Source: Ralstonia sp. A12 (GTDB lineage: Bacteria; Pseudomonadota; Gammaproteobacteria; Burkholderiales; Burkholderiaceae). Taken from it: DNA of 64,000 bases. Shown here piece by piece: positions 2-34,361 of this stretch. A model generated the notes under the pieces. That model was not told the DNA's origin and searched no databases. It saw only the letters and a list, made by a program, of their open reading frames with translations. The stretch spans positions 620,001-684,000 of the forward strand of contig NZ_JSZO01000001.1 of assembly GCF_000801955.1 (NCBI RefSeq), given 5' to 3'. Each line of letters opens with the position of its first letter. Positions within the stretch are counted from its first letter, which is position 1. Position numbers and translations under genes: made by a program.

Positions 2-823
2 CAGTTCACGCTCACCACCCAGGTGCAGCAGCGTGGCGAGTGGATCTTGCATCCGCTCAACGAATCGTTGCGCAAGGCCTCGCCGGGCAAGCTGCGCTCC
101 ATTCCCGTGCGCTTGCTCTTCAACGATCCGACCCTCTCGCTGCGTGCGGATTACACCCTGTTCGACAGAGATAGCGGTCGCCCGGTCTGCGTCGGGAATG
201 GCGAGCGCTGCAAACGCGTGGAGGACAGCGGCATTGCGGTCCTGCCCTGCCCGTCGCCGGAAGGCTGTCAGTTCGGCGGCCCGGGCGGCTGCAAGCCGTA
301 TGGCCGATTGAATGTGATAGTAGGCGACGAAGACGAGATGGGTTCGTTCATCTTCCGTACCACCTCGTTCAACTCCATTCGTACGCTGGCAGCACGCCTG
401 CACTACTTCAGCGCGGTATCCGGCAACCTGCTGGCCTGTCTGGCGCTGGAATTGAGGCTGCGGGGTAAATCCACCGCGCAAAGCTACCGTGGCGCCATCT
501 ATTACGTCGATCTGGCGGTCCGGGTCGGCACGACGCTGGAAGCGACCATTACGGAGGCGCGAGAACTGGACGCACGCCGCAAGGCAGCCGGCTTCGATCA
601 GGCGGCGTTGGATGCGGCCGCCAGGGCGGGCTTTGCCAACGGGGAGTTCGAGGACAGCGCGGAAGAAGCGGCAGCGGTGGCCGAGGAATTCTATCCGGGG
701 CAAGTCCAGGGCGATGCAGCACTTGGCTCAGAGGCGGCGGCTAATGAGGCACCCGGACCTGTCCCCACCCTGCGCGACAAGCTCACGCGCAAGGCGGCTT
801 TGCTGGGCGGATCGGCCGCATGA
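2..823 (+). CDS. gp3-like / 'hydrolase or metal-binding' integrative-element protein, 5' end outside window
   Basis: The frame is open from base 2, so only the last 273 residues are seen; GTG codons inside it are not the start. The visible part begins QFTLTTQVQQRGEW and has a cysteine-rich patch (CVGNGERC, then PCPSPEGCQFGGPGGC) followed by KPYGRLNV and a helix-rich C-terminus. I recognise this as the protein commonly labelled 'hydrolase or metal-binding protein' in Burkholderiales and Pseudomonas integrative elements. It resembles the gp3-like recombination directionality factor family, which steers serine integrases. Metal binding by the cysteines and a directionality role are inferences. 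It opens the plus-strand operon and overlaps the next gene by 4 bp (ATGA). Confidence 0.7.
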   Translation, partial: QFTLTTQVQQRGEWILHPLNESLRKASPGKLRSIPVRLLFNDPTLSLRADYTLFDRDSGRPVCVGNGERCKRVEDSGIAVLPCPSPEGCQFGGPGGCKPYGRLNVIVGDEDEMGSFIFRTTSFNSIRTLAARLHYFSAVSGNLLACLALELRLRGKSTAQSYRGAIYYVDLAVRVGTTLEATITEARELDARRKAAGFDQAALDAAARAGFANGEFEDSAEEAAAVAEEFYPGQVQGDAALGSEAAANEAPGPVPTLRDKLTRKAALLGGSAA

Positions 824-1845
824 GCCGGGGCGCCTCTCGGGCGCTGGCGGTCGCGGCGACCGGCACCGCGCTCTGCCTGTCGTTGTTGGCCGGCTGGCAG
901 CGCGGCGGCTCGTCTGCCGAACGGCTGGTGTGGGTCGCCATCGGTGTCGTGCTGGTCGCCTGCGCCCACCTGCTGCCGGCGCTGGTGCGGGGCGCGTCGG
1001 CTGGAGTCCGTGGCGTGGCCGCCGTCCTGTGGCTTGCCTGCATGGCGGCGGCGTGCCTCGGTCACGCCACGTTCTTCGTCCTGGCCCAGCGGCATGCCGG
1101 GGAACTGCGGATGTTGGCGGCGCCTGTCCCAGAGCCGGCGGCGGCCAATCGGAGTCTCACAGCGGTCATGACGGAACGGGCTGAGGTTGTTGCGCGGCTG
1201 GCGACGATCACGACTCAGCGCTGTTCCGGCAACTGCCCGACACTGGAGGCGCGTCGCGTCACGCTGACTGCGAGACTTGCTGCGCTGGACGCCGAAGTGG
1301 AAAACGTACGGCGCAGCATGGCCGAGCGTGACCGCGCGACGGCACAACGCGACGCGCGACTCACCGATCCGGTCACGGCGCGACTCGCCGCGCTACTGGG
1401 CACAACGGTGGTGCGTGTTGAGCTCCTGACGGCGCTCACCTTCGCTGCGGTTCTGGAGGGCATTGCCTGTCTGCTCTGGACGCTGACACTGGTGTCGCGC
1501 CAGCGCTCGGAGACTCCAGTCGCGCCCAGTCATGCCCTAGCCGTCGCACCAGCAGGGCCGTTACCCGCAGCGGTCGCATGTGCGACTGACGTGACTGCAC
1601 CCCCAGTCACGGCCGTCACGCTAGGTGCCGTCGAAACGGCAGGCAGTCACGCCCCACACGACGCTCCAGTCACGCCGCACCCGCCAAGCGCGTCGCACGA
1701 CCCCGACGTGACGCAACTCGTCCAGGCCATCGCCACCGGACAACTGCGCCCGACCGTCAACGGCATCCGCCAGTTTCTTGGCTGCTCCCAGGCCCGGGCC
1801 ATCGCCCTGCGCCGCCGGCTCGCTGAACTCGCCTCAGCGGCATAA
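820..1845 (+). CDS. Four-TM membrane protein with Cys-pair coiled coil and C-terminal helix-turn-helix
   Basis: 341 aa. Hydrophobic segments lie near residues 9-26, 34-54, 62-86 and 205-227. A GWQRGG motif follows TM1, HLLP lies in TM2 and AQRHAGE follows TM3. Between TM3 and TM4 is a charged, probably coiled-coil stretch opened by a cysteine pair (RCSGNC). A Thr/Pro/Ala/Val-rich linker leads to a C-terminal helix-turn-helix at about 305-338 (TVNGIRQFLGCSQARAIALR) that recalls the FtsK gamma winged helix. No motor or enzyme domain is seen. The gene is translationally coupled to the preceding one. It is a diverged relative of the protein at 33030-34361 and holds a dense cluster of GTCACG words. 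Function unknown; membrane-anchored DNA binding is inferred. Confidence 0.75.
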   Translation: MSRGASRALAVAATGTALCLSLLAGWQRGGSSAERLVWVAIGVVLVACAHLLPALVRGASAGVRGVAAVLWLACMAAACLGHATFFVLAQRHAGELRMLAAPVPEPAAANRSLTAVMTERAEVVARLATITTQRCSGNCPTLEARRVTLTARLAALDAEVENVRRSMAERDRATAQRDARLTDPVTARLAALLGTTVVRVELLTALTFAAVLEGIACLLWTLTLVSRQRSETPVAPSHALAVAPAGPLPAAVACATDVTAPPVTAVTLGAVETAGSHAPHDAPVTPHPPSASHDPDVTQLVQAIATGQLRPTVNGIRQFLGCSQARAIALRRRLAELASAA

Positions 1846-1846
1846 C

Positions 1847-1865
1847 GCCGGGCTTGGCGCCCGGC
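1847..1865 (+). other. Intercistronic GC hairpin
   Basis: A 7-bp perfect stem, gccgggc / gcccggc, with a 5-nt loop starts two bases after the stop codon of the membrane-HTH gene. No T-tract follows, so it is better read as an mRNA processing or attenuation element than a full terminator. A similar hairpin follows the next gene. Confidence 0.6.
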
Positions 1866-1957
1866 ATTTCTGCCGTTGTGTTTCCCATCCATTTTGGTGT
1901 GCCCGGTTCCGGTTGGCCCGGAGGCTCGCGCACGCCCTTACACCTTAGGAGCCCCCA

Positions 1958-2995
1958 ATGGGTGCAACCGTCCTCGTCGACCTCAAAACGGCGGCCTTAC
2001 GCCGCCCCGATGGGTCCATCGTCTACTTTCTGTTCGAGAACACGTACGAGAAAAACCTCTACCCACACGAACCGCGCTGGTCCTGCGTCGCCATCGGGTC
2101 GTACGACCAGGTGCTCAAGCGCATCTTCCAGGGCGCCGCCGCCTGCGAGGGCGGGTCGCTGCAGGGGCGCGGGCGTGGCCTTCTGCCAGAGACGTTCATT
2201 CCGCGCTGGCAGCGTGCCTTACGAACCCCGCTCACCATGCCGGATGTCACCGTTCGTGTGGAGCCGACTCTGCCTTACTCCCGGGATGAGGAGAACGCCC
2301 GGTATCGAGACAAGCTTGCCGGGGTGCTGGCCGACCAAGGCCGCCCGGAGCTGGCGGAGACCATCCGTGCGGGAGACGCCATCACGCTGGAGCTATACGC
2401 CGACCTCGATCTCGTGCTGGCGCTGCATGGCATGGATGGGCCGGTGTCGCCCTGGCGAGCCGTACGCGCGGAGCAGGCTCGGGAGCCCGCGGCGCCGGAG
2501 TTGGCACCGCCAAGATCCCGGGAGCCGGCGATGGCGCCGCTCTATGCGGTGTGGGCACTAGATCAGGATCTACGCATCGGTAAGTTCGGCGATGCGCCCG
2601 TGGCTGTCCTGGGCTGGACGTACCGGGCGGTGGGGCATTTCCTGGGCCAGTACATCTACCCGCTGGAGTTGCGGCGGACCGGCATCTCGGCGGAGCTCAT
2701 CCGACGCTTCCGAGAGGCCTGCCTGTCCGCTGCGCTGCTGCCCGACACCGTGCGCATCACGATCCGGCTCGATGAGCCCCCCGATGTGCAACCGTGGCAG
2801 TGGAAATGCGCCAGCCGGATTGCGGCGGCGCTCGGCGGCACGCAAGAAACGGCCTTGAGCACCACCTTGGGCGAACTGCGGCGCGCAGGCGCCCTACGCG
2901 ATCTGTCGTCGCTCAGCGCCGCCCAGCTTCACTGGGACGAGGCCACCTTCCCGCCCAGCTTTCCTGCCGACACTGCACCGGCGCCAGCGGCATAA
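1958..2995 (+). CDS. Integrative-element protein of unknown function
   Basis: 345 aa, starting at ATG 1958 with a purine-rich TAGGAG ribosome site about 8 bases upstream. No transmembrane segment or signal peptide is evident. I recognise no catalytic motif. There is a mixed alpha/beta N-terminal part, a Pro/Ala/Glu-rich linker around 165-185 and a second globular part from about 190 to 330. Position between the membrane-HTH gene and the DUF4942 gene, same strand, and hairpins on both sides make it part of one operon. Families in this position of Burkholderiales elements are generally uncharacterised. Confidence 0.65.
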   Translation: MGATVLVDLKTAALRRPDGSIVYFLFENTYEKNLYPHEPRWSCVAIGSYDQVLKRIFQGAAACEGGSLQGRGRGLLPETFIPRWQRALRTPLTMPDVTVRVEPTLPYSRDEENARYRDKLAGVLADQGRPELAETIRAGDAITLELYADLDLVLALHGMDGPVSPWRAVRAEQAREPAAPELAPPRSREPAMAPLYAVWALDQDLRIGKFGDAPVAVLGWTYRAVGHFLGQYIYPLELRRTGISAELIRRFREACLSAALLPDTVRITIRLDEPPDVQPWQWKCASRIAAALGGTQETALSTTLGELRRAGALRDLSSLSAAQLHWDEATFPPSFPADTAPAPAA

Positions 2996-2997
2996 GC

Positions 2998-3016
2998 CCC
3001 GGGCTGCGTGCCCGGG
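2998..3016 (+). other. Intercistronic GC hairpin
   Basis: cccgggc / gcccggg, 7-bp perfect stem with loop tgcgt, beginning two bases after the stop codon of the preceding gene. It has the same design as the hairpin at 1847-1865, which suggests a shared role in the operon mRNA. Confidence 0.6.
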
Positions 3017-3045
3017 ATGGTCTTCCTACGACGGACAGGATTCTC

Positions 3046-3855
3046 ATGAATACCACCACAGATGTCGTCCCCAGCGTCAGCATCTCCAATCTCGCCAACC
3101 AGCGCGCCGCCGTGGTTGAACGCATCCGCGCCGCGCTCGACTTGCTTGCAGAAGCCGAACAGCTCGCACGCTCCGCCCACCTGGGCTTTCCGAGGCTGGT
3201 GCTCGACAATAGCTATGCGCGCCGGGGCGTGGTCACGGTGACCGGCGAATATGCGACGCGCGCCGAGGCGGAACAAGCGATCCTGCACACCATCGACGCC
3301 CAGGGCTGGAACTACTTGCTCAGCGAATCGGGCCTGCGCACCTTCATGGATGCCCGCGCCCGCGCGCAATGGCACCAGCAGATTGCCGATGGCAACGTGC
3401 CCGAGTTCACCGCTGCCAACATCGAAGCCACGTTCACCGAGCTGCACGGGGCCCGTGGCGACATGTTCGAGCGCGGCGTGCTGGAGTGTTTCCGGCGGCT
3501 GTCGTGGGACTACAAGAGCAACCAGCCCTTCAAGTTCGGCAAGCGGGTCATCTTGAAGTCCCTGTTCAGTTACGGATCGCTCAATCACCACGGCGCGAAT
3601 GAGCTGGACGACCTGCTGCGCGTGTTGCACGTGCTCGACGGCAAGCCCGAGCCGGATCACCGTGCCGGCGTCTACTACCTGATCAGCCACGCGCGAGGGC
3701 AACGGCAGGTCGAGGCAGAGAACGATTATCTGCACCTGCGCTGGTTCCAAAACGGCAATGGACACCTGACGTTCAAGCGGTCGGATTTGGTAGACCGCAT
3801 GAATCTGATCCTCGCCAAGCACTATCCCAACGCACTGCCTTCCCAAGTGCGGTAG
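3046..3855 (+). CDS. DUF4942 domain protein
   Basis: 269 aa from ATG 3046; the frame is open further upstream but overlaps the previous gene without a ribosome site. The segment from about residue 120, with FTELHGARGDMFERGVLECF, RRLSWDYKSN, FKFGKR and LDDLLRVLHVLDGKPEPDHR, is the conserved core of the DUF4942 family. That family is found almost only on plasmids, phages and integrative elements and has no assigned biochemical function. The N-terminal 100 residues are helical. The gene continues the left-hand plus-strand operon. Confidence 0.85.
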   Translation: MNTTTDVVPSVSISNLANQRAAVVERIRAALDLLAEAEQLARSAHLGFPRLVLDNSYARRGVVTVTGEYATRAEAEQAILHTIDAQGWNYLLSESGLRTFMDARARAQWHQQIADGNVPEFTAANIEATFTELHGARGDMFERGVLECFRRLSWDYKSNQPFKFGKRVILKSLFSYGSLNHHGANELDDLLRVLHVLDGKPEPDHRAGVYYLISHARGQRQVEAENDYLHLRWFQNGNGHLTFKRSDLVDRMNLILAKHYPNALPSQVR

Positions 3856-3962: not shown

Positions 3963-4265
3963 ATGACGGAACCCGCTTTACCCGCATTGACACCGCCACG
4001 CTTGCCGCTCGGGCAACTGGTGGCAACCCCGGCGGCGATTGCCGCCCTGTCCGAGGCCGGCGTATCGGTCTACCTGCTGCTCAACCGCCACGCTCGTGGC
4101 GACTGGGGCGAGTTGCGCGAGGCAGACCGCTTGCAGAACGTGTTGGCGGTCAATACCGGAGAGCGCGTGGTCTCCTCCTACCGGTTACCCAATCAGCAAA
4201 AGGTCTTGATCATTACGGAGGCCGATCGTGCGGCGACGACGGTCCTGCTGCCGGAGGATTATTGA
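3963..4265 (+). CDS. Small plasmid/ICE-type conserved protein
   Basis: 100 aa, ATG 3963, with TTTTTTGGAGAACACC upstream giving a good GGAG site. The pattern LGQLVATPAAIAALSEAG, then LLNRHARGDWGEL, then EADRAATTVLLPEDY, is a recognisable small family carried by plasmids and integrative elements. It is often mislabelled 'type I restriction endonuclease subunit M', but it has none of the methyltransferase motifs. Its stop codon overlaps the ATG of the next gene by one base, so translation is probably coupled. Function unknown. Confidence 0.8.
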   Translation: MTEPALPALTPPRLPLGQLVATPAAIAALSEAGVSVYLLLNRHARGDWGELREADRLQNVLAVNTGERVVSSYRLPNQQKVLIITEADRAATTVLLPEDY

Positions 4266-4882: not shown

Positions 4883-5212
4883 TTACCGCAGGCGGCTGCG
4901 CTTGATCTCGGGCGGCGTGGCGGCGTTGACGCGCCGGTGCCCGGTGGGCTTGAGCGACACGCCATCGAGCGGTGCAAACAGTTCGGAGAGCGTCACGCCC
5001 AAGCAGTAGCAGATGTTCGCCAGCGTCTCCACCGACGGATTGGCAATACCGCGCTCGATCGAGGAAATGTAGGTCCGGTCGACGTGCGCCTCGAAGGCCA
5101 ACGTTTCCTGTGACTTGTCCGCAGCGTGGCGGCACTGCTTGATGCGTTTGCCCAGGGCCACCGAGATCGGAGCCGGTCGAGCGGAAGGGGTCTCTGAGCG
5201 CTTGGCAGTCAT
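4883..5212 (-). CDS. XRE-family transcriptional repressor
   Basis: About 109 aa; ATG at 5212 (MTAKRSETPS) is preferred, with another possible start six codons upstream at 5230. Residues 15-80 form a Cro/C1-type helix-turn-helix: LGKRIKQCRHAADKSQETLA, then VDRTYISSIERGIANPSVET, then LGVTLSELF. It is convergent with the peptidase gene, their stops being adjacent. Its promoter region holds a perfect 11-bp inverted repeat, as expected for an autoregulating repressor. It may control both itself and the divergent cargo gene at 5417. Confidence 0.85.
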   Translation of the reverse strand: MTAKRSETPSARPAPISVALGKRIKQCRHAADKSQETLAFEAHVDRTYISSIERGIANPSVETLANICYCLGVTLSELFAPLDGVSLKPTGHRRVNAATPPEIKRSRLR

Positions 5213-5252
5213 GGCGTGCAGAATGCCCACCTGACGACTGATTCACGACGCT

Positions 5253-6488: not shown

Positions 6489-6498
6489 TTGCTGCCCT

Positions 6499-9493: not shown

Positions 9494-10834
9494 CTACGAC
9501 GCTGACGCGACGTCTGCAGCCAAACCAGCGCCTTCGAATCTACCGAGGAACGGTGCCTCAACTGGCGTGACCAGCCGCCGTGTTTTCAAACAGAAGGGCA
9601 AGACCCATAGTCGCAATTCGGTCGTCTTGGGGAACTCAAATACCGGCAGTGGCTTATCGAAACTAGCCGTCCTAGGGAAGATCAGGACAACGTCGCCTTT
9701 GCCCTCCAGATAGCTTTGACCGTATGCCTGAAGCTGGTAGAAATCGCTCTGAGCGAGACCGTACTTGGCTGTACCGTTCGCTTTCAGGCTCTCCAGCAGC
9801 TTCCACTTGGTGTCGAGTACCAGCACATCGCGCGTGGCATCTTGGACAAGCAGATCCGGCTTGAGGCGAAACCAGTCCTGCCCGCAATGGCGAACCAGGT
9901 GATGACTTCTGGCTTGGGCCTTTAGATGCAACGGACGAATCAACTGGCCGGCGATATGCTTCGCGACGAAAGCCTCGAATACCGCCTCCATTGGGAACAG
10001 GAGCGAAGGCGCACGATGCCTGCCAATTCCTGTCAAGGGAGATTCCTCGTCGAGAATCAGGCGAGCCCAAGCCAACGCATCGTTGTAGTAGCTCATCCCT
10101 CGGTCAAGCCGCACGCATTGGAAATCACGATCCGGCAGATTAGAGGGCGCAATCTCGGCGAACACAAAACACAGTTCTCGCGCGAACTGTTGATTTGCCT
10201 GCGATGTCGACAATGCCAGAACGCGACGCAGCGCCGCATGGAGCAGCCGATTTTCAGGGCGGTTCGGAGTGTACTCGTCATGCTCAGTGAAGAACCGATC
10301 CGCCCGGCAGAGGTTTTCTCGCAGATGCGGTGCCATTCGCAATTTGCCGCGCAACGACACCAAGTTGCCCTGCCGACTCGTGTAATCGCTGCGAAGCCCT
10401 CGTTTGACGACATGTTCGACGCTCAGCAGGAACTCGCCGATGAAGACTTCGAGCAAAGGCATGTGGGCAGCCGCGACCTTAGCCCGGTCGGTCCGAATGT
10501 GCCGGAAGCCGTTGAGGCACCACAGCATGTCGAGCAGCAGCTGTCGCGCCTCGACGGCCCCGCCACCGATCACCTTGCCAACCTTGGGCAACACCTCAAT
10601 CTGGAATCCGTCGGGGGCGCGGACAACGCCAACGAAACTCGTTACCTGAACGGCACGCCGACCGCGCCGCCGCACCGGACGCAACCACGCAGCCTCGCCA
10701 TCCTCTCCCCGCAAGCTCTCAAGGTCCAGCCAGTCGAACACGTTCGTCGGAATGGCGTGCACCCCTTCCGCCTCCGTCAGGTTGGTGCCGTCGGCCACCA
10801 GAGCGTCGAACTCGTAGATCGTAATGCCACTCAT
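9494..10834 (-). CDS. mcrC: McrC-family subunit of a modification-dependent restriction system
   Basis: 446 aa from ATG 10834 (MSGITIYEFDALVADGTNLT). The N-terminal half carries McrC features (FVGVVRAPDGFQIEVLPKVG, then LEVFIGEFLLSVEHVVKRGL and SLRGKLRM). The C-terminal nuclease half has LKPDLLVQDATRDVLVLDTKWKLL, the PD-(D/E)xK signature with Asp and D-T-K spaced as in McrC. It would supply the cleavage subunit for the McrB motor encoded 16 bp upstream. McrBC systems cut DNA with modified cytosines. Length and motifs are typical; target specificity cannot be read from sequence. Confidence 0.9.
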   Translation of the reverse strand: MSGITIYEFDALVADGTNLTEAEGVHAIPTNVFDWLDLESLRGEDGEAAWLRPVRRRGRRAVQVTSFVGVVRAPDGFQIEVLPKVGKVIGGGAVEARQLLLDMLWCLNGFRHIRTDRAKVAAAHMPLLEVFIGEFLLSVEHVVKRGLRSDYTSRQGNLVSLRGKLRMAPHLRENLCRADRFFTEHDEYTPNRPENRLLHAALRRVLALSTSQANQQFARELCFVFAEIAPSNLPDRDFQCVRLDRGMSYYNDALAWARLILDEESPLTGIGRHRAPSLLFPMEAVFEAFVAKHIAGQLIRPLHLKAQARSHHLVRHCGQDWFRLKPDLLVQDATRDVLVLDTKWKLLESLKANGTAKYGLAQSDFYQLQAYGQSYLEGKGDVVLIFPRTASFDKPLPVFEFPKTTELRLWVLPFCLKTRRLVTPVEAPFLGRFEGAGLAADVASAS

Positions 10835-10850
10835 CCAGTCTCTCGTGGCC

Positions 10851-13220: not shown

Positions 13221-13225
13221 CGTTG

Positions 13226-13978: not shown

Positions 13979-13982
13979 CGCG

Positions 13983-17300: not shown

Positions 17301-17317
17301 CACGCGCTCCTTTGTTG

Positions 17318-21113: not shown

Positions 21114-21355
21114 TAGTAAATTCCGGATTCGTCATCGCCCATCAGCCCTGGCTTGCGTTGCAGCGCAGGTCGATGCTCGTCTCGTTGCGACGCGCATGTT
21201 GGACGAGGTGTTTCATGAATTATGCAATACAGAGCCGGACGCCCACGATCGAACTTCGATGGGTCTGTGACGTCGGATGAAGTGAACCGCCAATTCGGCG
21301 AAGACAGCATCAGAATCGAACGCTAGGAAGCGCGGCGCCTGTCCGGCAACAACAC

Positions 21356-21946
21356 TTAGCGATAAGGCGCCTTGGGCCCGATATAGCGCTTGTAGGCCGC
21401 GATCCAGTCGTGCGCCATCTCCTGCTGGGCTTTCGCTAGAGGAAGCTTGCGATGGCACACCAGCGTGTGCAGGCGGTTCTCCAACCGGTCCTTGGCGAGG
21501 CTACCCCAGTTGCCAATCACGTGGTGAGGCTGGGGCCAGAGATTCCTGGCACTGTCCGGTGAGCCACCAATCTCCAGCGCAACGAGATGGTCTTCTTCAT
21601 AGTCCCGCAGCCGCTTGTCCGCGTAGCCGTACTGCCGGATCTGTCGCACCTTGAGGTCATGCGTGAATTGCTGCGGTGGCCGCACGGTCTTGGTGTAACC
21701 GCGCACGCAGATCGTCTCGCGGATGTTGGCCTGCGTGACGCGCGGGTCAATGGCTCCTGGTGTCAGCTTTGGATTGGGCCTCGCCCGCTCGATCGGTGCA
21801 ACGGCGGCATACACGCCTGTCGCATCATCAACGCCGCCCATATTCCTCCGCGCGTGCGCCGGAAGCGAAGTCAAGACTGCCACGCACAGCGTGGCGAACA
21901 ACCACCGATACTGCCTTTGCACAACCACCCCATCGAACAACCGCAT
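21356..21946 (-). CDS. Secreted HNH-like nuclease family protein
   Basis: 196 aa, ATG 21946. Residues 14-32 form a hydrophobic signal segment ending SLPAHARR. The C-terminal half carries LRDYEEDHLVALEIGGSPDS and RNLWPQPH, the pattern of small exported HNH-like proteins (D-H pair, later N and H). Cysteines in TICVRGYTKT and HTLVCHRKL could pair after export. Periplasmic nuclease activity is inferred. It is separated from hsdM by 240 bp on the same strand and may be its own unit. Confidence 0.7.
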   Translation of the reverse strand: MRLFDGVVVQRQYRWLFATLCVAVLTSLPAHARRNMGGVDDATGVYAAVAPIERARPNPKLTPGAIDPRVTQANIRETICVRGYTKTVRPPQQFTHDLKVRQIRQYGYADKRLRDYEEDHLVALEIGGSPDSARNLWPQPHHVIGNWGSLAKDRLENRLHTLVCHRKLPLAKAQQEMAHDWIAAYKRYIGPKAPYR

Positions 21947-22263
21947 TGAAGTTCGATATTGTACGTTCTGCGCCCCACTCCCCAGATTGGAGTGAGCCTA
22001 GGAATCGGTTTGGATCAACTCGCGCGCCGAAGAGTTGATCAGCGACTGCAGCTCGGCAAGATCCACAGTCGCGAGGCGCAGGCCTTTCGTAAGCAATTGG
22101 AAAACGGATTCACATCCTCCGCAGATCGCTGCATGGCCACTATCCGACATGGTCGAAGCTGATGCAACCTAGCTAGGTTATGACTACTTGTCAGCACTAG
22201 CCGCGCTAGTTCGCGCACATTTCGGATCGCACAGGCCATCTCTCGCATACCGTGCGATGCGCC
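21947..22263. other. Intergenic stretch without recognised feature
   Basis: 317 bp between the HNH-like gene and the PHP-SMC gene, both minus strand. I see no convincing reading frame, hairpin terminator or repeat. It presumably holds the HNH-like gene promoter near 21950-22020. Confidence 0.5.
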
Positions 22264-25200
22264 TCAGTGGTACTTGACCCGTCGATTATTGAATGCGGGC
22301 TTCGTCCCCTCAAGCACATCCACGACACGACCATTGATTAATGAGTTTTCGATGGAGCCAGCAACATACGAAATCTTCGACCCACCCTTTCTGTCGAAGC
22401 TACACCAGATGACCTGTTCGGCATCACACACGACAGCAAGATTGGGGTTGTGCGTCACCATGATGATCTGCCTACGCTTCTTCGCCTCGGTCAGCACAGG
22501 CACAAGCAGGCCCACAACAGTTTCGTTATCAAGGTTCTCCTCCGGCTGGTCGAGAATAATCGGATTCCGTCCTTTGTCAACGAGCAGGTAGAAGATCAGT
22601 AACAACGCACCTCGCTGACCGGGTGACAACTGCTCAATGGGCGTATCCTGAAATAGCAGTGAATATCGTGGCTCGAGAAACGACAACCCAAACAGCAAGT
22701 CGTACACATCCGTCGGAGACTTGTCTTTGCGCAGCATGGTTCGGATGCCGATGGACGCTTTCCCACCATTTCCCGCAGCGGCCGCAACGATCTTGTCGCA
22801 AAGGCTACTCACAAAACCGACAGCTTCATCGCGTTTGTTGAAATCGTGTTGTTCTGCCAGCCTGCGAACAACACCGTAGCTCTCGTCATCTCCCCCACGA
22901 AACTCGCCTGCATTTTGCTTAATCAGGGTGAAGAGGCTATCCGAGAGCGGTTCGAGCGAACCACCGAGGGTTGCCCGGAACTGGAGCTTGTAGTCATCGC
23001 GAATAAGGCTGTTGCCCTGGATCAGGTCCTGCACCGGCTTGAACAGGTCTTCGCGCGCTTTCCTCTGCGCTCCGAGCACGTCAAAAATTTCACCGGCAAG
23101 CTGCGTCCGTTTAGCACGGTACCCCTCCCAAATCCCTGGAAGAGCATCAAGTTGTGCCAGCCTCGCCTTCAGGCCCTCGAGCGTATCGGGAGCGTCGGCA
23201 GCCCCAACCAACTCGGCTAATTTAGTATTCCAATCCTCGACCGCCTTCAAGTTCTGCTGGTAGAGAAGCTGCGGCGCATTGAGCTTCGCCTGGAGGTTGG
23301 CCCGCTCCTTGAGCAACGCGTCCCTACTGGTGGCCGCAACGATAGCAGCCTGGTCGAGCTTTGCCTGCTCGCCTGACGCGTATGCAACGACGTCATCTAA
23401 CGGCTGAGGCGTTATCGCGAGAGTGACAAGATCCTCCACTTTCAGACCTAGGGTCGCCAAATCCTTGACCGTCTCGTCGACAAACTGCTTGTGCGCCCGC
23501 TCAAGGAGTCGAAGACGTTCTCTCGTGTTTTGAACGGCCTTCGACTTGCCTGCAAGCAGCGCTCGGGTCGCGGCCGCCTGATTGGCCGACTCGTCAAGGG
23601 CTCTTAGTTTCTCGGATACTCCCTCAAGATCCGCTGCTGCCGTTTTCTGTTCCGGCGACAGGGCCTCCCCTGGTGGGGAAACGGGAGCAGGTTTGATCTT
23701 GTTGTGTTCCTCGATCTGGCGAGCTTTGAGTGCAAGCAATTCCTCAAGCGCCCGCCGCCCCTCCGGTTGAAGCTGCTCCTCACTTGCGGTGATTCGTTGA
23801 TTGACGTCTCGAAGGTCTTTGCGAAGCTCGTTCAGTTGGGACCGGAAGCTTTGTTCCTGCTGCTCAACCAGTTGGTCGAAATCGAGCGCGCCAAGCCGGA
23901 TCGTTTCGTCAGTATGCGAGAAGATGACATCTCGCAACTCTTTCTCAAACGCATCGGAACGGCCAGAGACGTGAGCGTTACAAAGCTCTTCGAAGTGGCC
24001 CTGCGGGATATACCGGACCATTTCGACCTTGTCTTGTGGCGGATCCTCGTTCAAATTTCGCTGCTCGATGCTTCCTTCAAGCCAGGCCAGCTTGCCCAGG
24101 AACTGCCTCGCGGGGTCCCCCGATTTACCCCTAAAGCGGTCCTTCTTGAGAAAGGTAAAGTGCGCCTTTTGACGCGAATTCCCGAGCAGCGCCAACACGT
24201 CCGCGAGCGCGCTCTTGCCACTACCCTTGTTGCCAATGATCGCGACGAGGTCTTGGTTAAGCGGCAGCTTCACCCCGTCGAGCCAATCTCCGACAACTGT
24301 AGCGCCGGAGACCTTCTCAATCTCGACAGCGCCGATGAAATAGGTCCTGTTGTTCTCAATCTCGACCTGCTTGGGCGGACGCTCGCCAATGTAGGAACGT
24401 TTCGCCGGCTCCATAATGGCTTGCAGAAGTCCTTGGAAAGTCGGATCGGCTTTGATCCACGTGGCCTTCCCAGACGGGAAATCGCCGTAGCCTCGTTTGT
24501 CGTTGTTGCCTTTGACGCCTACGAAACAATGCGCGTCGCTCCCAGACACGACCAGCCGAGGGACGTGATTGAGTCCAACCTGAAAGTTCTTGAAAAATTT
24601 GGCGTTACCTGGCGTCTCCTCTCCCACGAAGGCGCCTCTGAGGTCGCTGTTCCGGGACTCGAAGATTGGTGAGCTTTGGAACAGGTCAAGAAAATAGGCG
24701 TAGTGATCCTGCCACTTGACTTCGCCAAGCCCGTCGCTCGTATCGTAGGGCATGAATCCGATGGCTTGGCCATGAGGCACACGCTTGATTGCCTCCTTGT
24801 ACGACTCGCAATTGATTTCGGCTATCGTCGAACCGGCTTGCAAAGCAAGAGCATCGTCCGTGTCGACCAGGGTTTTGTCGAAACCATGATGTTTAAGCTT
24901 GTCGGCACCTACGTGTCGTGCAAGGGCGACCAGGGCTGCATTGGAGAGAGGCCGCTTGACCAGCTCGACCTCAAGGGCCGATTTGAAATCGTCGAGCGCT
25001 TGGTCCTCGATCTCGTTCGAGAACAAGACATGTGCGTTGAGCCGGCACTTGGTGGGCGCGGCCAACCGAAGCTCAATTCCGGGGAAGACAGTTTTTTGCA
25101 GCGCCGGCGCACCAACTTCCTTCAGGCGGCGTTTAAGCGCAAACCAGCCATCAAATGTCCAATAGTCCATGAGCGTGAATACGGCCGGCTCGGCAGCATT

Positions 25201-25353
25201 CAGCGCCTGGATCATTTCGTCGACGAGAGCTCGATTGACATCGGACGCTGGATCGGCGTCGAACCGCTTGCCAGTCCAATGAAACGAAGCCGGCGTGTGG
25301 ATGTGTAAGTCCCACTGCCGCCACTCTGAGCCGCGCTGGTATATCCCCGCCAT
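22264..25353 (-). CDS. PHP-domain / SMC-like ATPase, candidate Ppl (TrlF-type) anti-phage protein
   Basis: 1029 aa from ATG 25353 (MAGIYQRGSEWRQWDLHIHT). The N-terminal PHP phosphoesterase domain has WDLHIHTPASFHW, AHVLFS and SGSDAHCF (about residue 280), the metal-binding His/Asp motifs. An ABC/SMC-type ATPase follows, split by a long coiled coil (about 450-760): Walker A IIGNKGSGKSALADVL, signature EQLSPGQRGALLLIF, Walker B NPIILDQPEENLDNETV and switch His IIMVTHNPNLAV. This architecture matches the single-gene PHP-ATPase defence family known as Ppl, also annotated TrlF. It probably senses phage DNA ends or replication and cleaves nucleic acid. It lies between the restriction operon and an unknown 310-aa gene. 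Confidence 0.85.
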   Translation of the reverse strand: MAGIYQRGSEWRQWDLHIHTPASFHWTGKRFDADPASDVNRALVDEMIQALNAAEPAVFTLMDYWTFDGWFALKRRLKEVGAPALQKTVFPGIELRLAAPTKCRLNAHVLFSNEIEDQALDDFKSALEVELVKRPLSNAALVALARHVGADKLKHHGFDKTLVDTDDALALQAGSTIAEINCESYKEAIKRVPHGQAIGFMPYDTSDGLGEVKWQDHYAYFLDLFQSSPIFESRNSDLRGAFVGEETPGNAKFFKNFQVGLNHVPRLVVSGSDAHCFVGVKGNNDKRGYGDFPSGKATWIKADPTFQGLLQAIMEPAKRSYIGERPPKQVEIENNRTYFIGAVEIEKVSGATVVGDWLDGVKLPLNQDLVAIIGNKGSGKSALADVLALLGNSRQKAHFTFLKKDRFRGKSGDPARQFLGKLAWLEGSIEQRNLNEDPPQDKVEMVRYIPQGHFEELCNAHVSGRSDAFEKELRDVIFSHTDETIRLGALDFDQLVEQQEQSFRSQLNELRKDLRDVNQRITASEEQLQPEGRRALEELLALKARQIEEHNKIKPAPVSPPGEALSPEQKTAAADLEGVSEKLRALDESANQAAATRALLAGKSKAVQNTRERLRLLERAHKQFVDETVKDLATLGLKVEDLVTLAITPQPLDDVVAYASGEQAKLDQAAIVAATSRDALLKERANLQAKLNAPQLLYQQNLKAVEDWNTKLAELVGAADAPDTLEGLKARLAQLDALPGIWEGYRAKRTQLAGEIFDVLGAQRKAREDLFKPVQDLIQGNSLIRDDYKLQFRATLGGSLEPLSDSLFTLIKQNAGEFRGGDDESYGVVRRLAEQHDFNKRDEAVGFVSSLCDKIVAAAAGNGGKASIGIRTMLRKDKSPTDVYDLLFGLSFLEPRYSLLFQDTPIEQLSPGQRGALLLIFYLLVDKGRNPIILDQPEENLDNETVVGLLVPVLTEAKKRRQIIMVTHNPNLAVVCDAEQVIWCSFDRKGGSKISYVAGSIENSLINGRVVDVLEGTKPAFNNRRVKYH

Positions 25354-26927: not shown

Positions 26928-29126
26928 CTATGCGATGTGCGGACGCTCCAATGGCAGCGCCTCATGCTCGTGGCGCGTGCCGAACAATGGGCCGTCTGCC
27001 CAGCAGCTCATGCGCAAGTACCGACTCGCCTGGGCCATGTAGCGGATGTTCCTGCGCAGTGCCTGGCGCTTTTGCTGATCCCTCCAATCGACCGCCCCCA
27101 TGAAGACACCATGCCGGTGCTTTGCGTGGAAGCCCTTGTTGGGATAGCCATTCCACCATTGGCCCACGTCACCTGTCAGGCTCAGCCATACTTCGCCGAG
27201 CAAGTCCGAGACGGCGAAGTCATGACATGTGTCCTCTGTGCAGAAGAACAGTACGTGCAGACGCAAACCAGACTCCTCCCCGCCATCGAGCATCCAGATG
27301 TCATCAACAACGACGCGGCTTAGCACTGGATCGGTGCGGCAGAGCTCAAGGAACGCGCGGCTGTGGGCTTGTATCTCCGTTGGCGTGATTTGGGCTCGAT
27401 CCGGATAGCAATAGCCGAAGCTCAGCATCAGCACGGTACGCGTGGACTGCGCCGCGAATACCTGTCGCTCGACCGCAAGGCCCATGGCTTCATCGTGCTG
27501 CATGTCGTGTTGGTGCGCGCGTAGTTGATTCGCGAATGGCGCCGAGCGGAGGATTTCCTGCGCCTTGTCTACCACCTCGTCAAACACTACCCGATGCGGT
27601 TTCCCAAGCCGGCGATCATAGGCATCAGGCTCGCCAAAGGCGAAGCGATCGGGATACAGCCCCAACGCGTAAAGCGCCTGGCGGATGGTCTCGACGTGGG
27701 GACTGAAGACATATCGATCAGAGAAGGCGCAGTGTTTTTGAAACCGTTTCAAGGCATAGAAGTAGCGCGTATCCTTGAAGCTCACACGAGCTTCGCTGGA
27801 CGCGATGTCACGCGCCATCTCTTCCATCGGGACAAGCAGGGGCATGAGCACGTTGAAGCTTGGAAGCCTGGCCACCGCCGGCTGGCCGTTGAACTCGATG
27901 CCGTCGGCGTTGCGCATGCATTCGATGAATTCGTGAATCTTGGGAAAATCATCGGCCACCTCGTCTGCGATCGTCGCGACACCCTCGCCAGCCTGGCGTG
28001 CGGCCGAGGCCGTAGCGCCCGTGTCAAGCCCTGGGGATGGGTGGGCCGGCTGACACACAGATTCCTCTACCACTTCCCGGATCAGGCTCGTCCCAAACAC
28101 AGCGCAACGTTCAAATCGCGGCATGCATAGAAGCTGATCCGCGTTGGTCATGTAGTGGATGTACATGCGCAGCGCCTCACGCCTCTCCTCGTCGTACCGA
28201 TCAATGATGCCGGTGCAGATGGGATAGTCATACTTCTGGTGCAACGCCGCGTGGGCGTTGTCATGCCAGCACTGCCCCTTTCCGCCAGTCGCCGTCCTCC
28301 AATGCGCGCCGAGTAACGTGGGTAAATGGTGCTCGCGGAGCGAATCGGCGGTAAGAAAGAGCATCATTTGCAGATGCAAGCCGCTCTCAGCGCCCTCGCC
28401 CTGTGTCCAGATATAGTCAACGATGATGCGGCTCAGTAGTACGTCCGTGCCGCAGAGGTCCAAGAGTGCTTGGCGGTGCTTCTCAATCTCATCCGGCTTG
28501 ATCTGACGTCGGTGCTGCTCCTGGTACCCCATGGTCAACAGCAACACCGCGCGCTGAGACTCGGCCTCGAACGCCTGCCGCTCAATCGCCAAGCCCATTG
28601 CCTCGTTACACTTAGCATCCGCACAACGGGCCTGCATGCGCTCCTCGAACTGCGGGGAGCGCATGATCTCAGTCGTCTTGGCGATCACCTCGTTGAAGAT
28701 CTCGGCATGCCGCTTGCTGGTGCGAGCGTCACGCGAATTGGGCTTGGCAAAGGTGAAAACGTCGGGAAACAGGCCCAACTCCATCAGTGCCTCGCGCACT
28801 GCCTCAACGCGGTCGCTGAATATGTAGCGCCCGGCAAATGCGTGAGATCGCTGAAACCGCTTCAATACGGGAAAGTATTCCTTGCCGAACGCAGAGGGCA
28901 CGGCAATCTCACGTCCCCGTTTCCGAGGAGCGATTTCAAAGCCGATGTCGCCCCAGCCGCTTCCAATGCTGCGCGCCATGTCCTCCAGCTTAATCAGCGT
29001 AGGTCCCAGCAGATTGAAGCTTGGCAGCAAGGTTGTCACCTGATCATCCCGCTCCATCTTGCCCTCGGTATTCCTCGACCACTCGATGTATTCGATCACC
29101 CTTCCATAACCACGCTCATTGATCAT
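26928..29126 (-). CDS. Tandem-duplicated YfjJ / inovirus Gp2-like protein
   Basis: 732 aa from ATG 29126 (MINERGYGRVIEYIEWSRNT); the frame opens slightly upstream only with a TTG. Two homologous halves, about 1-345 and 385-732, share LLPSFNLLGPTLIKLEDMAR with RLPSFNVLMPLLVPMEEMAR, VLKRFQRSHAFAGRYIFS with ALKRFQKHCAFSDRYVFS, and LLSRIIVDYIWTQG with VLSRVVVDDIWMLD. The end of each half (RMYIHYMTNADQLL; RRNIRYMAQASRYL) resembles the YagK/YfjJ (inovirus Gp2) C-terminal domain, a replication-associated family. At the expected HUH position one half reads ESGLHLQ and the other ESGLRLH, so each has lost one histidine. It is 105 bp downstream of the related gene at 29232. Confidence 0.7.
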   Translation of the reverse strand: MINERGYGRVIEYIEWSRNTEGKMERDDQVTTLLPSFNLLGPTLIKLEDMARSIGSGWGDIGFEIAPRKRGREIAVPSAFGKEYFPVLKRFQRSHAFAGRYIFSDRVEAVREALMELGLFPDVFTFAKPNSRDARTSKRHAEIFNEVIAKTTEIMRSPQFEERMQARCADAKCNEAMGLAIERQAFEAESQRAVLLLTMGYQEQHRRQIKPDEIEKHRQALLDLCGTDVLLSRIIVDYIWTQGEGAESGLHLQMMLFLTADSLREHHLPTLLGAHWRTATGGKGQCWHDNAHAALHQKYDYPICTGIIDRYDEERREALRMYIHYMTNADQLLCMPRFERCAVFGTSLIREVVEESVCQPAHPSPGLDTGATASAARQAGEGVATIADEVADDFPKIHEFIECMRNADGIEFNGQPAVARLPSFNVLMPLLVPMEEMARDIASSEARVSFKDTRYFYALKRFQKHCAFSDRYVFSPHVETIRQALYALGLYPDRFAFGEPDAYDRRLGKPHRVVFDEVVDKAQEILRSAPFANQLRAHQHDMQHDEAMGLAVERQVFAAQSTRTVLMLSFGYCYPDRAQITPTEIQAHSRAFLELCRTDPVLSRVVVDDIWMLDGGEESGLRLHVLFFCTEDTCHDFAVSDLLGEVWLSLTGDVGQWWNGYPNKGFHAKHRHGVFMGAVDWRDQQKRQALRRNIRYMAQASRYLRMSCWADGPLFGTRHEHEALPLERPHIA

Positions 29127-31064: not shown

Positions 31065-31250
31065 ACGATCAAATTTGAAAACAATGTCACACATCCCTCG
31101 ACCTTACCTACCATTCCATCAATAAAGTGAGCAAGCCCGCGGACCCACGGGAGCAGACATGCAGAGCTTCAAGTAGTAAGCGCCGATTTGGGAGACAAAA
31201 AAAAGCGCGTACAGTCCGCACGCGCTCATCAACAATTTGTCGGCTTTTAG

Positions 31251-33017
31251 TTAGTCACGATAATAGTAGGTACTCGTCAACTCTACGTGACCTAGACCAG
31301 CCTCCCCTGCCTGCTTCTGAATCTCCTGCTTGACTGCACGAAAATCCTTCGAATCGTGCACGACATGTTTCGGATCGCCTGCTTGAGCTGCAGTGTGTAC
31401 CATTTTGTCGTTCGCCCGCACGACATATGTCCCCTGCTTCGCGGACACAACCGCACCGAAATTACTCTCCCCCATGTCTGCAATCGCTTTTTTCACGCGA
31501 GCAGCAATCATACGAGGGTGAGTCGCATGAAAATCGGGCATGATCTCGGCAAACTTGTTTGCTGGAAACAATATAATCCGCCCTCCTTTTCTTCCTGGAA
31601 CAATAGAGATGTACCCCTGTCGCTGAAGCGCATCAATTGCACTTGCCAGCAATGCGGGATTTTTTCGGATCGGCGAGAAGTTGTTCAGATCTCGCTCGGT
31701 ATACTGCCCTGGTTTCAACTGCGAATATCGAAACGGATTCGCCGCCGCCTCCTGAAGCCATTCCAGAAGTTTTTGCATTGCCTCGGCCTCCTGTTGCAGC
31801 TTGGACGGTGCATAGGGCGTGAACACGCGAATGTATTCGTCTGCGTACCACTCGCACAGGGCAATCGCGCTCTTCATCGCTTCGGGCGAAATATCACCAG
31901 GTTTCCCCTCGAAATAGTGAAAAAGCGCAGCAATTCGGCTTGCGTTTTGCGCGAGCTTGCGAAAGAAGAACTTGATGCTGTCGGAATGGCACGAGCCAAC
32001 CAGCCATCGGTTAATCGCGTCCTTGAAAAGCTTCCAATAGCGTTTGGCGCCCTCGGACAACCTCTTCACAGTGCGCTCACGAGGCGCAGGAACAACCTGC
32101 CCCAGAATCTGCTTGACCCGCTCGTTAAAAAGTCCGAGCTTCGGCTCGGGCACATCCTCAACGCACGTCTCTTGCCCAGATACATCACTGTATTGAGGAG
32201 CCACAATCAGTGTTCTCGCTAACATGCCCGTTCCGAAAGCGTCCCTGCCTCGGCTCTCCATGTAATCCGAGAACCTATCGGTTTGGCTCATGACCGATAT
32301 GGTCAACTGTGGCGCCACAGGTCGACGATTTCCGCTGACAAGGCCGACCGGTCGGTCCTCGCCACTCCAGTAGCCGCTGAACATCGCTGGCTGGCCGAAA
32401 GTCATGCCGTTGATAACCGGTCCGGCCTCGGCCGATATGATGCTGATGGTGCCGTTGGCAACCAGTGCATCCCGCAGCCCCTGCGGCGACAATTCAGCGT
32501 ACCGTTGCTCCCGGACCGCAGGTTTCACCGGTCGCTGCTGCTCATGCTGCAGACGCATCTCGCGAATGCTCAGGGCTTCATCTGAAGCGGGCTCTGCGCT
32601 GCGGTAATCCTTGGCCAGCCGCCGCTCATCATCTTGCCAAATCTTCAGCTCTGCCAAGTAGATCGGCATCTTGGCCGCAACGTCTTCCTCTTGCTGGCGC
32701 TCGCGGGCCACCACCGCGCGAAGAAAGCGCTGTTCCACCGGCGACTTTCCGGCGCTGGAATTGCTGACCCCCATTAGAAAAAGGGAACACGGCGCCGGAT
32801 CGAAGTTTGGACACTGGACGCTAATGAAGTCTTGGCAAACGTGCGACACCGTGCCCAACGCCGCTTGAGCCGACAATTCGACCGGCAGCGTGAGAATCTG
32901 GCTAACCTCCCAAATGGCCTCTCCGATGATGGGCGGAAAGACGTGCGTCGGGTAACAGCCCTGGGCCATCGGCGATTGATAGAAGGCCTCTCCGTTTGGA
33001 TACTCCACGATTGGCAT
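31251..33017 (-). CDS. YfjI-family (DUF3987) protein
   Basis: 588 aa, ATG 33017 (MPIVEYPNGEAFYQSPMAQG). The DUF3987 core is recognisable: LTLPVELSAQAALGTVSHVC, DPAPCSLFLMGVSNSSAGKS (a degenerate P-loop), SEAGPVINGM and QLTISVMSQTDRF, then a helical region and a winged C-terminus (SAIDALQRQGYISIVPGRKG). YfjI proteins are primase/helicase-associated proteins of CP4-57-like elements, with a presumed replication role. It is 12 bp downstream of the membrane-HTH gene, so they form one operon. Confidence 0.85.
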   Translation of the reverse strand: MPIVEYPNGEAFYQSPMAQGCYPTHVFPPIIGEAIWEVSQILTLPVELSAQAALGTVSHVCQDFISVQCPNFDPAPCSLFLMGVSNSSAGKSPVEQRFLRAVVARERQQEEDVAAKMPIYLAELKIWQDDERRLAKDYRSAEPASDEALSIREMRLQHEQQRPVKPAVREQRYAELSPQGLRDALVANGTISIISAEAGPVINGMTFGQPAMFSGYWSGEDRPVGLVSGNRRPVAPQLTISVMSQTDRFSDYMESRGRDAFGTGMLARTLIVAPQYSDVSGQETCVEDVPEPKLGLFNERVKQILGQVVPAPRERTVKRLSEGAKRYWKLFKDAINRWLVGSCHSDSIKFFFRKLAQNASRIAALFHYFEGKPGDISPEAMKSAIALCEWYADEYIRVFTPYAPSKLQQEAEAMQKLLEWLQEAAANPFRYSQLKPGQYTERDLNNFSPIRKNPALLASAIDALQRQGYISIVPGRKGGRIILFPANKFAEIMPDFHATHPRMIAARVKKAIADMGESNFGAVVSAKQGTYVVRANDKMVHTAAQAGDPKHVVHDSKDFRAVKQEIQKQAGEAGLGHVELTSTYYYRD

Positions 33018-33029
33018 GCTTGATCCTCC

Positions 33030-34361
33030 TCACGCGTACGCCATGGCGGGCATAGCGATGCTTGGCACATGGATCTTGTTCTGCTGCCGCACACGCGTCA
33101 CGTCCGACAAGGCGTGCGGAGATGCGCCACCAAGCGACATTTCCACGACATTCTTCCCAATGTGGCTCCCTTGGCTGGGTGTGCTGCCATAGCGAGCAAG
33201 GTATTGACGGTTCAGGCTGCCCGCCGTCCATTGCCGGCAGCGGAGAAATTTGCGGATCGACTCCTGTGTCGGCTTGAGGTGCCCAATCAGGACAGCCTCA
33301 TGGATTCGGGCAAGCAGAAGTTCATCTTCTGACGTGTCCGGGCCACCTGGGTTTTCCACAGCGGTAACCGCTTGGCCTGACGCGACCGCTGCACGACCAT
33401 CGGCCGGGACTATTCGGTCGCCGGTCGCAGGGCTGCATACAGGTAAGACCACTTGACGTTCCGACACGACCGCCTCACGGTTCGGCGCATCAGCGTCGCG
33501 ATCGGATGCGACCACTGCGCGACCGCCTGTACGAGCCAAGGCAATCTGCACCAGCAGCCAGCCAATGATGGCAGCGCCTTCGAGCACGACCGCGCAGGCG
33601 ACCGCAAGAAACAGTTCGAGTCGGCGTTCGGTCGTGCCAAACCAGGATGCGACCGTCGACGCGACCGGATCGGCACGCAACGTCGCGCGCAGTGCTTCAT
33701 CGCGGTCAGCTTGGTCGTTCCGGCGGTCTTCTTCGGCTTCGCGGCGGCGTGCCTCGCTCGCCTCAGTATCCAATGCCGCAAGCTGCGCTGCGAGGATGGT
33801 CTTGCGTGTCTTAAGCGCCGAGCAGTCGGCCACGCAACGGCGCATTTCCGCACGGGCGAGGTCAGCGCTAACCTTGGCAGCATCCTGCGCGATCTCCGTA
33901 AGACTACGGCCTGATGGAGGACTCGCACCGGGCGGCATGACGGTCGCAGGAACCGCTGCTGCCCGCTGATTGCTTGCATGCTGCTGCGAGACCATGAAGA
34001 AGCTGACTTGCCCATACAGTACGACCGCAACGCTGACACACCACAATACGAACGCGGTAGCTCGCGGCATTGCGCGGAACGTGCTCCAGCACATGGGCAA
34101 CAGATGCGTGCAAAGGACCACCACGCCGCCGAGCGCCACGCTCGTCACCTGCTCGATGAACGTGCCGCCACGCTGCCAGCCTCCGTACATCGCAATACCA
34201 AGCGACACCGCACTGGCCGACACTGCGCACACTGCCGTTAGCGACAGCGGGATAATGGATTTGCCGACAGGCAACTGGTCTGGTCGTTCGGATGCGCGAA
34301 TATGAACATCGCTGGCGTGAACGGCATCAGTACCGATCGCTACAAATTGAGTTGAGTGCAT
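33030..34361 (-). CDS. Second four-TM membrane protein with Cys-pair coiled coil and C-terminal helix-turn-helix
   Basis: 443 aa from ATG 34361, with AAGGAG seven bases upstream. Same plan as the protein at 820-1845: TM1 then GGWQRGG, HLLP in TM2, QQHA after TM3, a cysteine pair (RRCVADC) opening a coiled coil with AAQLAALDTEASEARRREAE, and TM4 near VACAVVLEGAAIIGWLL. A long Val/Ala/Arg-rich linker leads to a helix-turn-helix at about 345-390 (LKPTQESIRKFLRCRQWTAG). It has an extra tail of about 50 residues. The gene is dense in GCGACCG words. It is co-transcribed with the YfjI-type gene, which ties it to element maintenance. Confidence 0.75.
   Translation of the reverse strand: MHSTQFVAIGTDAVHASDVHIRASERPDQLPVGKSIIPLSLTAVCAVSASAVSLGIAMYGGWQRGGTFIEQVTSVALGGVVVLCTHLLPMCWSTFRAMPRATAFVLWCVSVAVVLYGQVSFFMVSQQHASNQRAAAVPATVMPPGASPPSGRSLTEIAQDAAKVSADLARAEMRRCVADCSALKTRKTILAAQLAALDTEASEARRREAEEDRRNDQADRDEALRATLRADPVASTVASWFGTTERRLELFLAVACAVVLEGAAIIGWLLVQIALARTGGRAVVASDRDADAPNREAVVSERQVVLPVCSPATGDRIVPADGRAAVASGQAVTAVENPGGPDTSEDELLLARIHEAVLIGHLKPTQESIRKFLRCRQWTAGSLNRQYLARYGSTPSQGSHIGKNVVEMSLGGASPHALSDVTRVRQQNKIHVPSIAMPAMAYA

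Follow-up and report, generated by a model that had tools for sequence, protein, structure and literature searches.

ToxR/CadC and BcrR are membrane-bound regulators whose N-terminal helix-turn-helix (HTH) domains belong to known families. In FtsK/SpoIIIE, a membrane N-terminus is joined by a flexible linker to a small C-terminal HTH-like domain. The p16.7 protein of phage phi29 has a single transmembrane (TM) segment and a C-terminal domain of its own. It is a membrane protein that organises the replication of phage DNA, which it is proposed to bring to the membrane (PMC4974454). In this article, we analyse two genes within a stretch of 64,000 nucleotides from Ralstonia sp. A12 (contig NZ_JSZO01000001.1, positions 620,001 to 684,000; designated the window). 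Their products, MH1 (820..1845, + strand, 341 amino acids) and MH2 (33030..34361, − strand, ATG at 34361, 443 amino acids), are paralogues within one family of polytopic inner-membrane proteins on mobile elements. Positions are given in window numbering unless prefixed by G000:C1, G000 being the own genome; further G and L labels denote compared genomes and loci. A preliminary description of the two genes had proposed that they could tether element DNA to the membrane. This interpretation is partly supported, and a membrane tether is the mechanism that we favour, with a probability of about 0.4.

For the proposed tether, p16.7 is the closest working analogue: it, too, is encoded by a mobile element, is integral to the membrane and has a proposed role in bringing element DNA there (PMC4974454). 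The MH proteins differ from it by four TM segments, a region with a cysteine (Cys) pair, an HTH-like tip and Gram-negative hosts. They gave no p16.7 match in Pfam or PHROGs, two libraries which presumably contain models of this protein. With FtsK/SpoIIIE they share the membrane N-terminus, the flexible linker, the small C-terminal HTH-like domain and a weak profile likeness to the gamma domain, but they have no motor and no significant match to a Pfam FtsK domain, and their TM3 and TM4 are separated by the Cys-pair region. The features that they would share with ToxR/CadC and BcrR are membrane segments attached to a DNA-binding portion in the cytoplasm and, for ToxR/CadC, also a periplasmic domain, whereas the N-terminus of the MH proteins runs into TM1 and no regulator family of Pfam is matched.

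The island that carries both genes is, as we take it, of the P4/CP4-57-like type, which we assume to be defined by a tyrosine integrase at a tRNA attachment site, AlpA and YfjI. Tyrosine integrase, tRNA site, AlpA and DUF3987 are all present on it; it differs from such islands by its size (~55-101 kb in three elements measured) and by the additional possession of a DUF932-YqaJ-Gp3-MH1-DUF4942 module and of MH2. A horizontally acquired region of B. glumae contains YqaJ, DUF932 and a XerC-type recombinase, i.e. genes of the former module on a Burkholderia island, and the passages describing it name no MH protein (PMC12755741). Within the open-licence literature, no paper describing the MH family or the element was found. 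Neither MH1 nor MH2 has a significant match in Pfam, NCBIfam, PHROGs or PADLOC (best Pfam E 0.066), which agrees with the earlier statement that a motor or enzyme domain is lacking. Likewise, Pfam searches with 13 family members and sequence searches of the PDB gave nothing significant; a RecA-like motor was matched neither by MH1 or MH2 in Pfam and NCBIfam nor among the Pfam families of the 13 members, and there was no FtsK TM-domain match.

The MH family and its linkage to element modules

Both genes are real, and their products are 35% identical across 345 amino acids (BLASTP, E 6e-41), so that the relationship and the common plan claimed in the preliminary description are confirmed; the lack of homology that it had named as a refutation is clearly not observed. 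Each protein has three TM segments, followed by a charged region of ~100 residues with the Cys pair and by a fourth TM segment, and it ends in a conserved HTH-like part that a variable linker joins to TM4. In MH1, TM1 (~10-25), TM2 (~37-56) and TM3 (~66-88) are followed by the Cys pair C135/C139, TM4 (~199-222), the linker (223-292) and the HTH-like part (293-338); the plan of MH2 is identical, and GWQRGG after TM1 and HLLP in TM2 occur in both. A search of the own genome revealed three family copies, namely MH1, MH2 and a third on contig C5, which is 62% identical to MH1 and has its own DUF932-YqaJ-Gp3 module with 76-82% identity to that of the island.

The two genes belong to different modules. 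In module A, MH1 is preceded by a Gp3-like gene (PF18897, Pfam E 7e-32; 1..823, + strand, starting 97 bp left of the window), which overlaps the start of MH1 by 4 bp, and by DUF932 and YqaJ, the latter matching a RecE-like exonuclease family (E 3e-82). In module B, MH2 is followed after 12 bp by a helicase/primase-like gene of the DUF3987 (YfjI) type (31251..33017, − strand; Pfam E 4.5e-52), which also matches phrog_2373, 'DNA helicase' (E 4.5e-40). A terminator-like hairpin (31203..31227, − strand) lies after the MH2-YfjI pair; terminator-like sites number 11 in the region against a shuffle mean of 6.8.

Relatives were sought in several samples. For the large genome samples, the best 4-7 first-look candidates per genome were scored, and absences are therefore soft. 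With MH1 as query, the family was found in 79 of 398 sampled Burkholderiaceae genomes and 9 of 25 genera; with MH2, in 80 of the 398, a figure that includes three marginal matches (G052, G202, G313; E ~5e-4) not counted as members. Furthermore, 24 plasmid records (19 Burkholderia, 5 Paraburkholderia) carry the family. No relatives were present among phage records at E 0.01, none of nine pattern matches in viral contigs was confirmed, and a further 273 genomes from the class sample, a sample that includes at least two Burkholderiales (G445, G488), yielded none. In the order sample, 5 of 300 genomes match: the own genome, G035, G548, G642 and, doubtfully, G519 (E 7e-4 over 48 residues). The copies in G548 and G642 are distant ones from another Burkholderiales family, and upstream of both lie a gene for 322-344 amino acids and, as judged by eye, a likely integrase. 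These two distant homologues (L168 10183-11202 and L171 16829-17860) keep the HTH motif and have no Cys pair.

A midpoint-rooted tree of 69 rows places MH2 in a clade of 11 rows, all of which have a YfjI, AlpA or YfjJ-like gene within 6 kb. The deep fork of this clade is weak (72/94), six of its eight inner forks are starred, and L091 and L059 form long branches. A third clade (8 rows, 100/100) is largely plasmid-borne, with five rows from plasmid records; no module A or B genes were seen near its copies, three of these loci having flanks of ~1.5 kb only. Among the remaining 48 Burkholderiaceae rows, Gp3 is located close upstream in 44; of the other four, L049 has DUF932 and no Gp3 match, and L065, L068 and L074 have neither within their short flanks. 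Conversely, among 50 Gp3 homologues close enough to score E 1e-30, 46 have an adjoining MH match, although in G160, G276 and G305 at least the MH copy looks broken or partial; Gp3 stands without it in G057 (second locus), G137, G012 and G182 (Gp3 partial). MH1 thus accompanies the DUF932-YqaJ-Gp3 module. For the co-occurrence that the preliminary description had suggested checking, the linkage is conserved in both modules, with the gp3-like gene for MH1 and with a YfjI, AlpA or YfjJ-like gene for the MH2 clade.

Conservation was assessed in an alignment of 67 Burkholderiaceae sequences, from which open reading frames (ORFs) shorter than 250 amino acids and duplicates were excluded; plasmid loci fetched later are absent from both alignment and tree. 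The mean hydropathy has four maxima, three before and one after the charged region of ~100 residues, so that the four membrane segments proposed earlier are retained and membrane anchoring is well supported by hydropathy. R97, C135, C139, P184 and W220 are invariant in all 67 sequences, R28 (94%), H50 (97%) and P53 (99%) are nearly so, and conservation of 91-99% is found for G307, T312, I316 (97%), R317 (99%), C322 (97%), Q324 (96%), A327 (99%), L330 and R332. A family signature holds, composed of a WQRG-type motif after TM1, HLLP in TM2, the Cys pair and a C-terminal IRxxLxCxQxxA, while the linker between TM4 and the HTH-like domain is variable and rich in Ala, Val, Pro and Thr. In 11 close pairs, the ratio of nonsynonymous to synonymous substitution rates (dN/dS) is lowest in TM4 (0.14), TM1-3 (0.16) and the HTH-like domain (0.17), higher in the TM3-TM4 region (0.31) and highest in the linker (0.59). 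Over the whole gene it amounts to 0.27, showing that the gene is under purifying selection.

Topology, C-terminal domain and proposed function

The net charge is +1.4 for the N-terminal tail (53 sequences), +0.6 for the TM1-TM2 loop and +1.9 for the TM2-TM3 loop. Because these short-loop charges favour an N-in orientation, the N-terminus, the TM2-TM3 loop and the C-terminal tail with the HTH-like domain are probably cytoplasmic, and the Cys-pair region, ~100 residues that join TM3 to TM4, probably faces the periplasm. The preliminary description had this pair open a coiled coil. The pair itself is universal in the alignment, but a coiled coil is not established: the residues LIVMF show a periodicity at 100 degrees (p 0.0175), which gives the region a helical look, the heptad angle has p 0.32, and the mean hydropathy has no helical period, for which reason a firm coiled-coil call was rejected.

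A periplasmic Cys-pair domain would suit a membrane-bound one-component regulator, the main rival of the tether. In such a protein, which would be functionally similar to ToxR/CadC or BcrR, promoters of the element would be controlled by the HTH in the cytoplasm in response to a redox or envelope signal that the periplasmic domain perceives. This would be consistent with the likely periplasmic position of the region, the invariance of C135 and C139 and the purifying selection on the HTH-like domain, and conserved hairpin sequences near module A genes (see below) could be operators or RNA signals. However, a regulator of the HTH_3 type is already encoded in module A and AlpA, where found, in module B; both distant homologues keep the HTH without the Cys pair; MH1 is coupled inside an operon; and a common operator was identified neither upstream of MH2 nor among the elements. 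We regard a regulatory function as only somewhat less likely than the tether.

The preliminary description had compared the C-terminus with FtsK gamma. A conserved HTH-like C-terminus is indeed present, whereas homology to gamma is not established and the likeness is only suggestive. In hhalign, the HTH profile reached a probability of 11.6% and a score of 17.43 against a profile of 24 FtsK-gamma domains, with the alignment falling in the register proposed earlier. Among 300 random single segments used as decoys, the maximum was 17.22, the next score 14.2 and the median 8.05; five other segments, taken as HTH-bearing or plasmid-partition controls, scored 9.3-13.2. The 24 gamma sequences taken singly scored 10.8-19.2, many of them inside the upper decoy range, and none of 50 family members matched Pfam FtsK_gamma.

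These data bear on a further explanation, according to which the MH proteins are FtsK-gamma-like directors without a motor, their HTH recognising a host sequence or protein and linking the element to the machinery of the chromosome terminus or the division site. The profile score above all 300 decoys in the proposed register would fit, as would the motif CSQ..A..LRR, which occurs in this or a near form in most MH1-type and plasmid copies and in the distant family and would agree with a common target. Yet the low profile probability, the overlap of single gamma scores with the decoys, the lack of Pfam FtsK_gamma, motor and TM-domain matches, the different motif of most MH2-type copies (C.Q..A..LNR) and the presence of an integrase on the element itself all speak against a director, and we consider it improbable. 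Should the HTH recognise DNA, the sites of MH1 and MH2 may differ. In the comparison of MH1 with the distant homologue of G548, the HTH-like domain is the best-kept part (52% identity, the remaining parts 14-39%); between MH2 and the same homologue it is not (HTH 33%, TM1-3 30%, TM3-TM4 region 35%). A second plasmid protein with the same HTH was not found, since each of 18 matching records was already an MH match.

In the favoured mechanism, the variable linker would carry the small HTH-like domain into the cytoplasm, where it would bind element DNA, perhaps together with proteins of the neighbouring DNA-processing genes. MH1 would then hold element DNA at the membrane during recombination, with DUF932, YqaJ and Gp3, and MH2 during replication, with YfjI. 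We infer each of the three steps, i.e. the HTH identity, the binding of DNA and its retention at the membrane; DNA binding by the C-terminus would be in line with motif conservation, the low dN/dS of this domain and the weak gamma likeness. The tether is favoured because genes for DNA processing adjoin the family in both island modules and, in some cases, on plasmids, and because the island modules already contain regulators. In addition, we count for it the overlap of MH1 with Gp3, the linkage of the family to Gp3 and of the MH2 clade to its partner genes, the selection on the HTH-like domain, the loop charges, the HTH identity between MH1 and G548, and the position on some plasmids. Of 16 plasmid regions viewed, 15 are annotated, and four of these, from three distinct backbones, have rep or parB no more than 1 kb away from the gene. 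The unannotated region contains an MH1-type copy with a Gp3 module.

Several observations weigh against the tether. In 11 of the 15 annotated plasmid regions the gene is farther than 1 kb from rep or par: one has a remnant ~4.5 kb from repA, two have ParA at 7-9 kb, and no rep or par gene was found within 8-10 kb in the other eight. No DNA-binding fold was recognised by Pfam in the HTH segments of 50 members (best LexA, E 0.07, in one member) or in a PDB sequence search with the HTH segment. Between MH1 and MH2 the HTH-like domain is 30% identical, below TM1-3 at 40%. The topology is soft, as the TM3-TM4 region has a net charge of +2.4 over 114 residues and the stretch after TM4 of just +0.4. 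A pure tether leaves the Cys pair without explanation; the pair could point to sensing. As to a shared repeat as binding site, no 13-mer was present in at least seven of nine elements compared, a few 11-mers doing so once or twice in each, and nothing convincing was seen upstream of or beside MH2. With respect to the roles in replication, partition or transfer considered earlier, the conserved links to element genes are in agreement with the proposal, and transfer is its weakest point, no conjugation or transfer genes having been noticed by eye in the related elements of G057 and G381.

The island, the pairing of the two copies and the neighbouring genes

The earlier placement of both genes on one island is upheld by an integrase, direct repeats at a tRNA-Ser gene and an empty site in relatives. 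The 3' end of tRNA-Ser carries an attR-like direct repeat (36613..36632, corresponding to G000:C1:656613-656632), the partner of which, CCAAACTGGCGGAGACGGAG, is located at G000:C1:555480-555499 (window position -64520), with 19 of 20 positions identical; no tRNA repeat occurs within 60 kb left of the window, the partner being 64.5 kb away. The tRNA-Ser(GCT) gene (36619..36712, − strand) is the integration site, and beside the left repeat lies a gene for an integrase of 396 amino acids (phrog_1, E 4e-58). In five relatives viewed (G011, G005, G001, G012, G008), a fabI-like gene directly precedes the tRNA-Ser/lysC block, and the G011 flank with this gene matches G000 up to 555480. BLASTN of the relatives' flanks, which by eye carry fabI-like and yej-like genes, gave nothing of at least 120 bp against the island. 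From the repeats at both ends and the empty-site flank ending at 555480, an element of ~101 kb is supported, which carries both MH1 and MH2 and of which the right 36.6 kb lie in the window. Within its left part (G000:C1 ~563000-606000), flagellar-looking genes and a repeat protein of 4364 amino acids were seen by eye.

Related elements in G057 (~60 kb) and G381 (~55 kb), delimited by tRNA and integrase and not by att repeats, use the same tRNA and have integrases 87-89% identical at their ends. Others adjoin tRNA-Ala (G383, G035), tRNA-Thr (G287) or tRNA-Ser(CGA) (G010). Counted from the tRNA, the order in G000, G057 and G381 is AlpA, YfjI and/or YfjJ-like with MH2, cargo, HTH_3 regulator, small genes, DUF4942, MH1, Gp3, YqaJ, DUF932, cargo and integrase; in G381, no YfjI gene was detected.

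The comparison of two-copy regions covered eight, i.e. the own one and seven chosen for having both copies on one contig. The copies are 12-37 kb apart and in opposite orientation in seven regions, the exception being G035; AlpA was detected in four, YfjI in five and a YfjJ-like gene in five. The pair represents two modules each with its own copy and is not an obligatory couple. Whether it is in addition a mere relic of two joined modules, with MH1 and MH2 not working together, we put at even odds; this would be compatible with any function. Such a relic would explain that three of 13 genomes with an MH2-type gene have no MH1 (G086, G092, G209), the other ten having both, with the MH2-type gene of G301 and the MH1 of G351 being fragments. 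It would also explain that an MH2-type gene was identified in 9 and not in 35 of 44 Gp3-carrying genomes, and that G010 keeps AlpA, YfjI and MH1 without MH2. It is opposed by the fixed layout, MH2 being located between the tRNA and MH1 in all six two-copy regions in which a tRNA was found.

Module A continues downstream of MH1 with an extra ORF of 345 amino acids (1958..2995, + strand), which has no match in the compared regions, DUF4942 (2896..3855, + strand; Pfam E 7e-61), a small conserved protein of 100 amino acids without a Pfam match (3963..4265, + strand) and the Cro/CI-type HTH_3 regulator (4883..5230, − strand; Pfam E 1e-12). The latter is 82-86% identical in G057, G381 and G287, where MH1 is 50-56% identical. 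A GC-rich hairpin preceded by GCATAA is located at or right after the stop codons of MH1 (1840-1866) and of the extra ORF (2990-3017), which is thereby flanked as if it were a cassette-like insertion, and in reversed form shortly before DUF932. It was also seen in G381, G301, G010, L007, L044, L045, L048 and G383. In 990 kb, 21 pattern matches were obtained, some of which are clearly other hairpins, compared to a mean of 3.3 in block-shuffled sequence. The hairpin may be a terminator, an operator or a repetitive extragenic palindromic (REP)-like repeat.

In module B, a protein in which one domain of ~350 residues occurs twice in tandem (26928..29126, − strand) presumably resembles YfjJ/inovirus Gp2, judging by motif; single-copy versions are present in G057 and G381. 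A large protein with a C-terminal AlpA domain (35217..36539, − strand; Pfam E 3.6e-13) lies at the tRNA end of the island. Between the modules, positions 9494-25353 contain defence-type cargo, including a restriction gene at 10851-13220 (PADLOC type II matches; McrB-like by eye), a type I restriction-modification system at 13983-21113 and an AAA/SMC-type protein at 22264-25353. As the element carries defence genes, a membrane protein encoded on it could in principle serve entry exclusion, defence or another envelope function unrelated to DNA. We consider this very improbable, as the MH genes have no PADLOC match at E 0.01, conserve the HTH-like domain and sit with recombination and replication genes and not in the cargo.

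Implications for Burkholderiaceae elements

To our knowledge, little is known about how the DNA of Burkholderiaceae islands and large plasmids is organised in the cell. One family that is linked to a recombination module, to a helicase-primase gene and to some maintenance regions of plasmids offers a testable handle. It is possible, though we consider it doubtful, that the MH proteins represent an undescribed, transferable family of membrane tethers, in which one HTH-tipped protein with a periplasmic Cys-pair domain was taken up by modules for recombination, by modules for replication and by plasmids of Burkholderiaceae, so that their DNA would be processed at the inner membrane. In that case, the MH1-type and plasmid copies, which have most of the recognition motif in common, may be directed at one target in the DNA or the host, MH2 having diverged from it. 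If the MH proteins were regulators, they would be of a membrane-embedded type in which the HTH is C-terminal and the Cys pair periplasmic, and for which no curated family was matched here. If they are tethers, these elements would generally process their DNA at the membrane.

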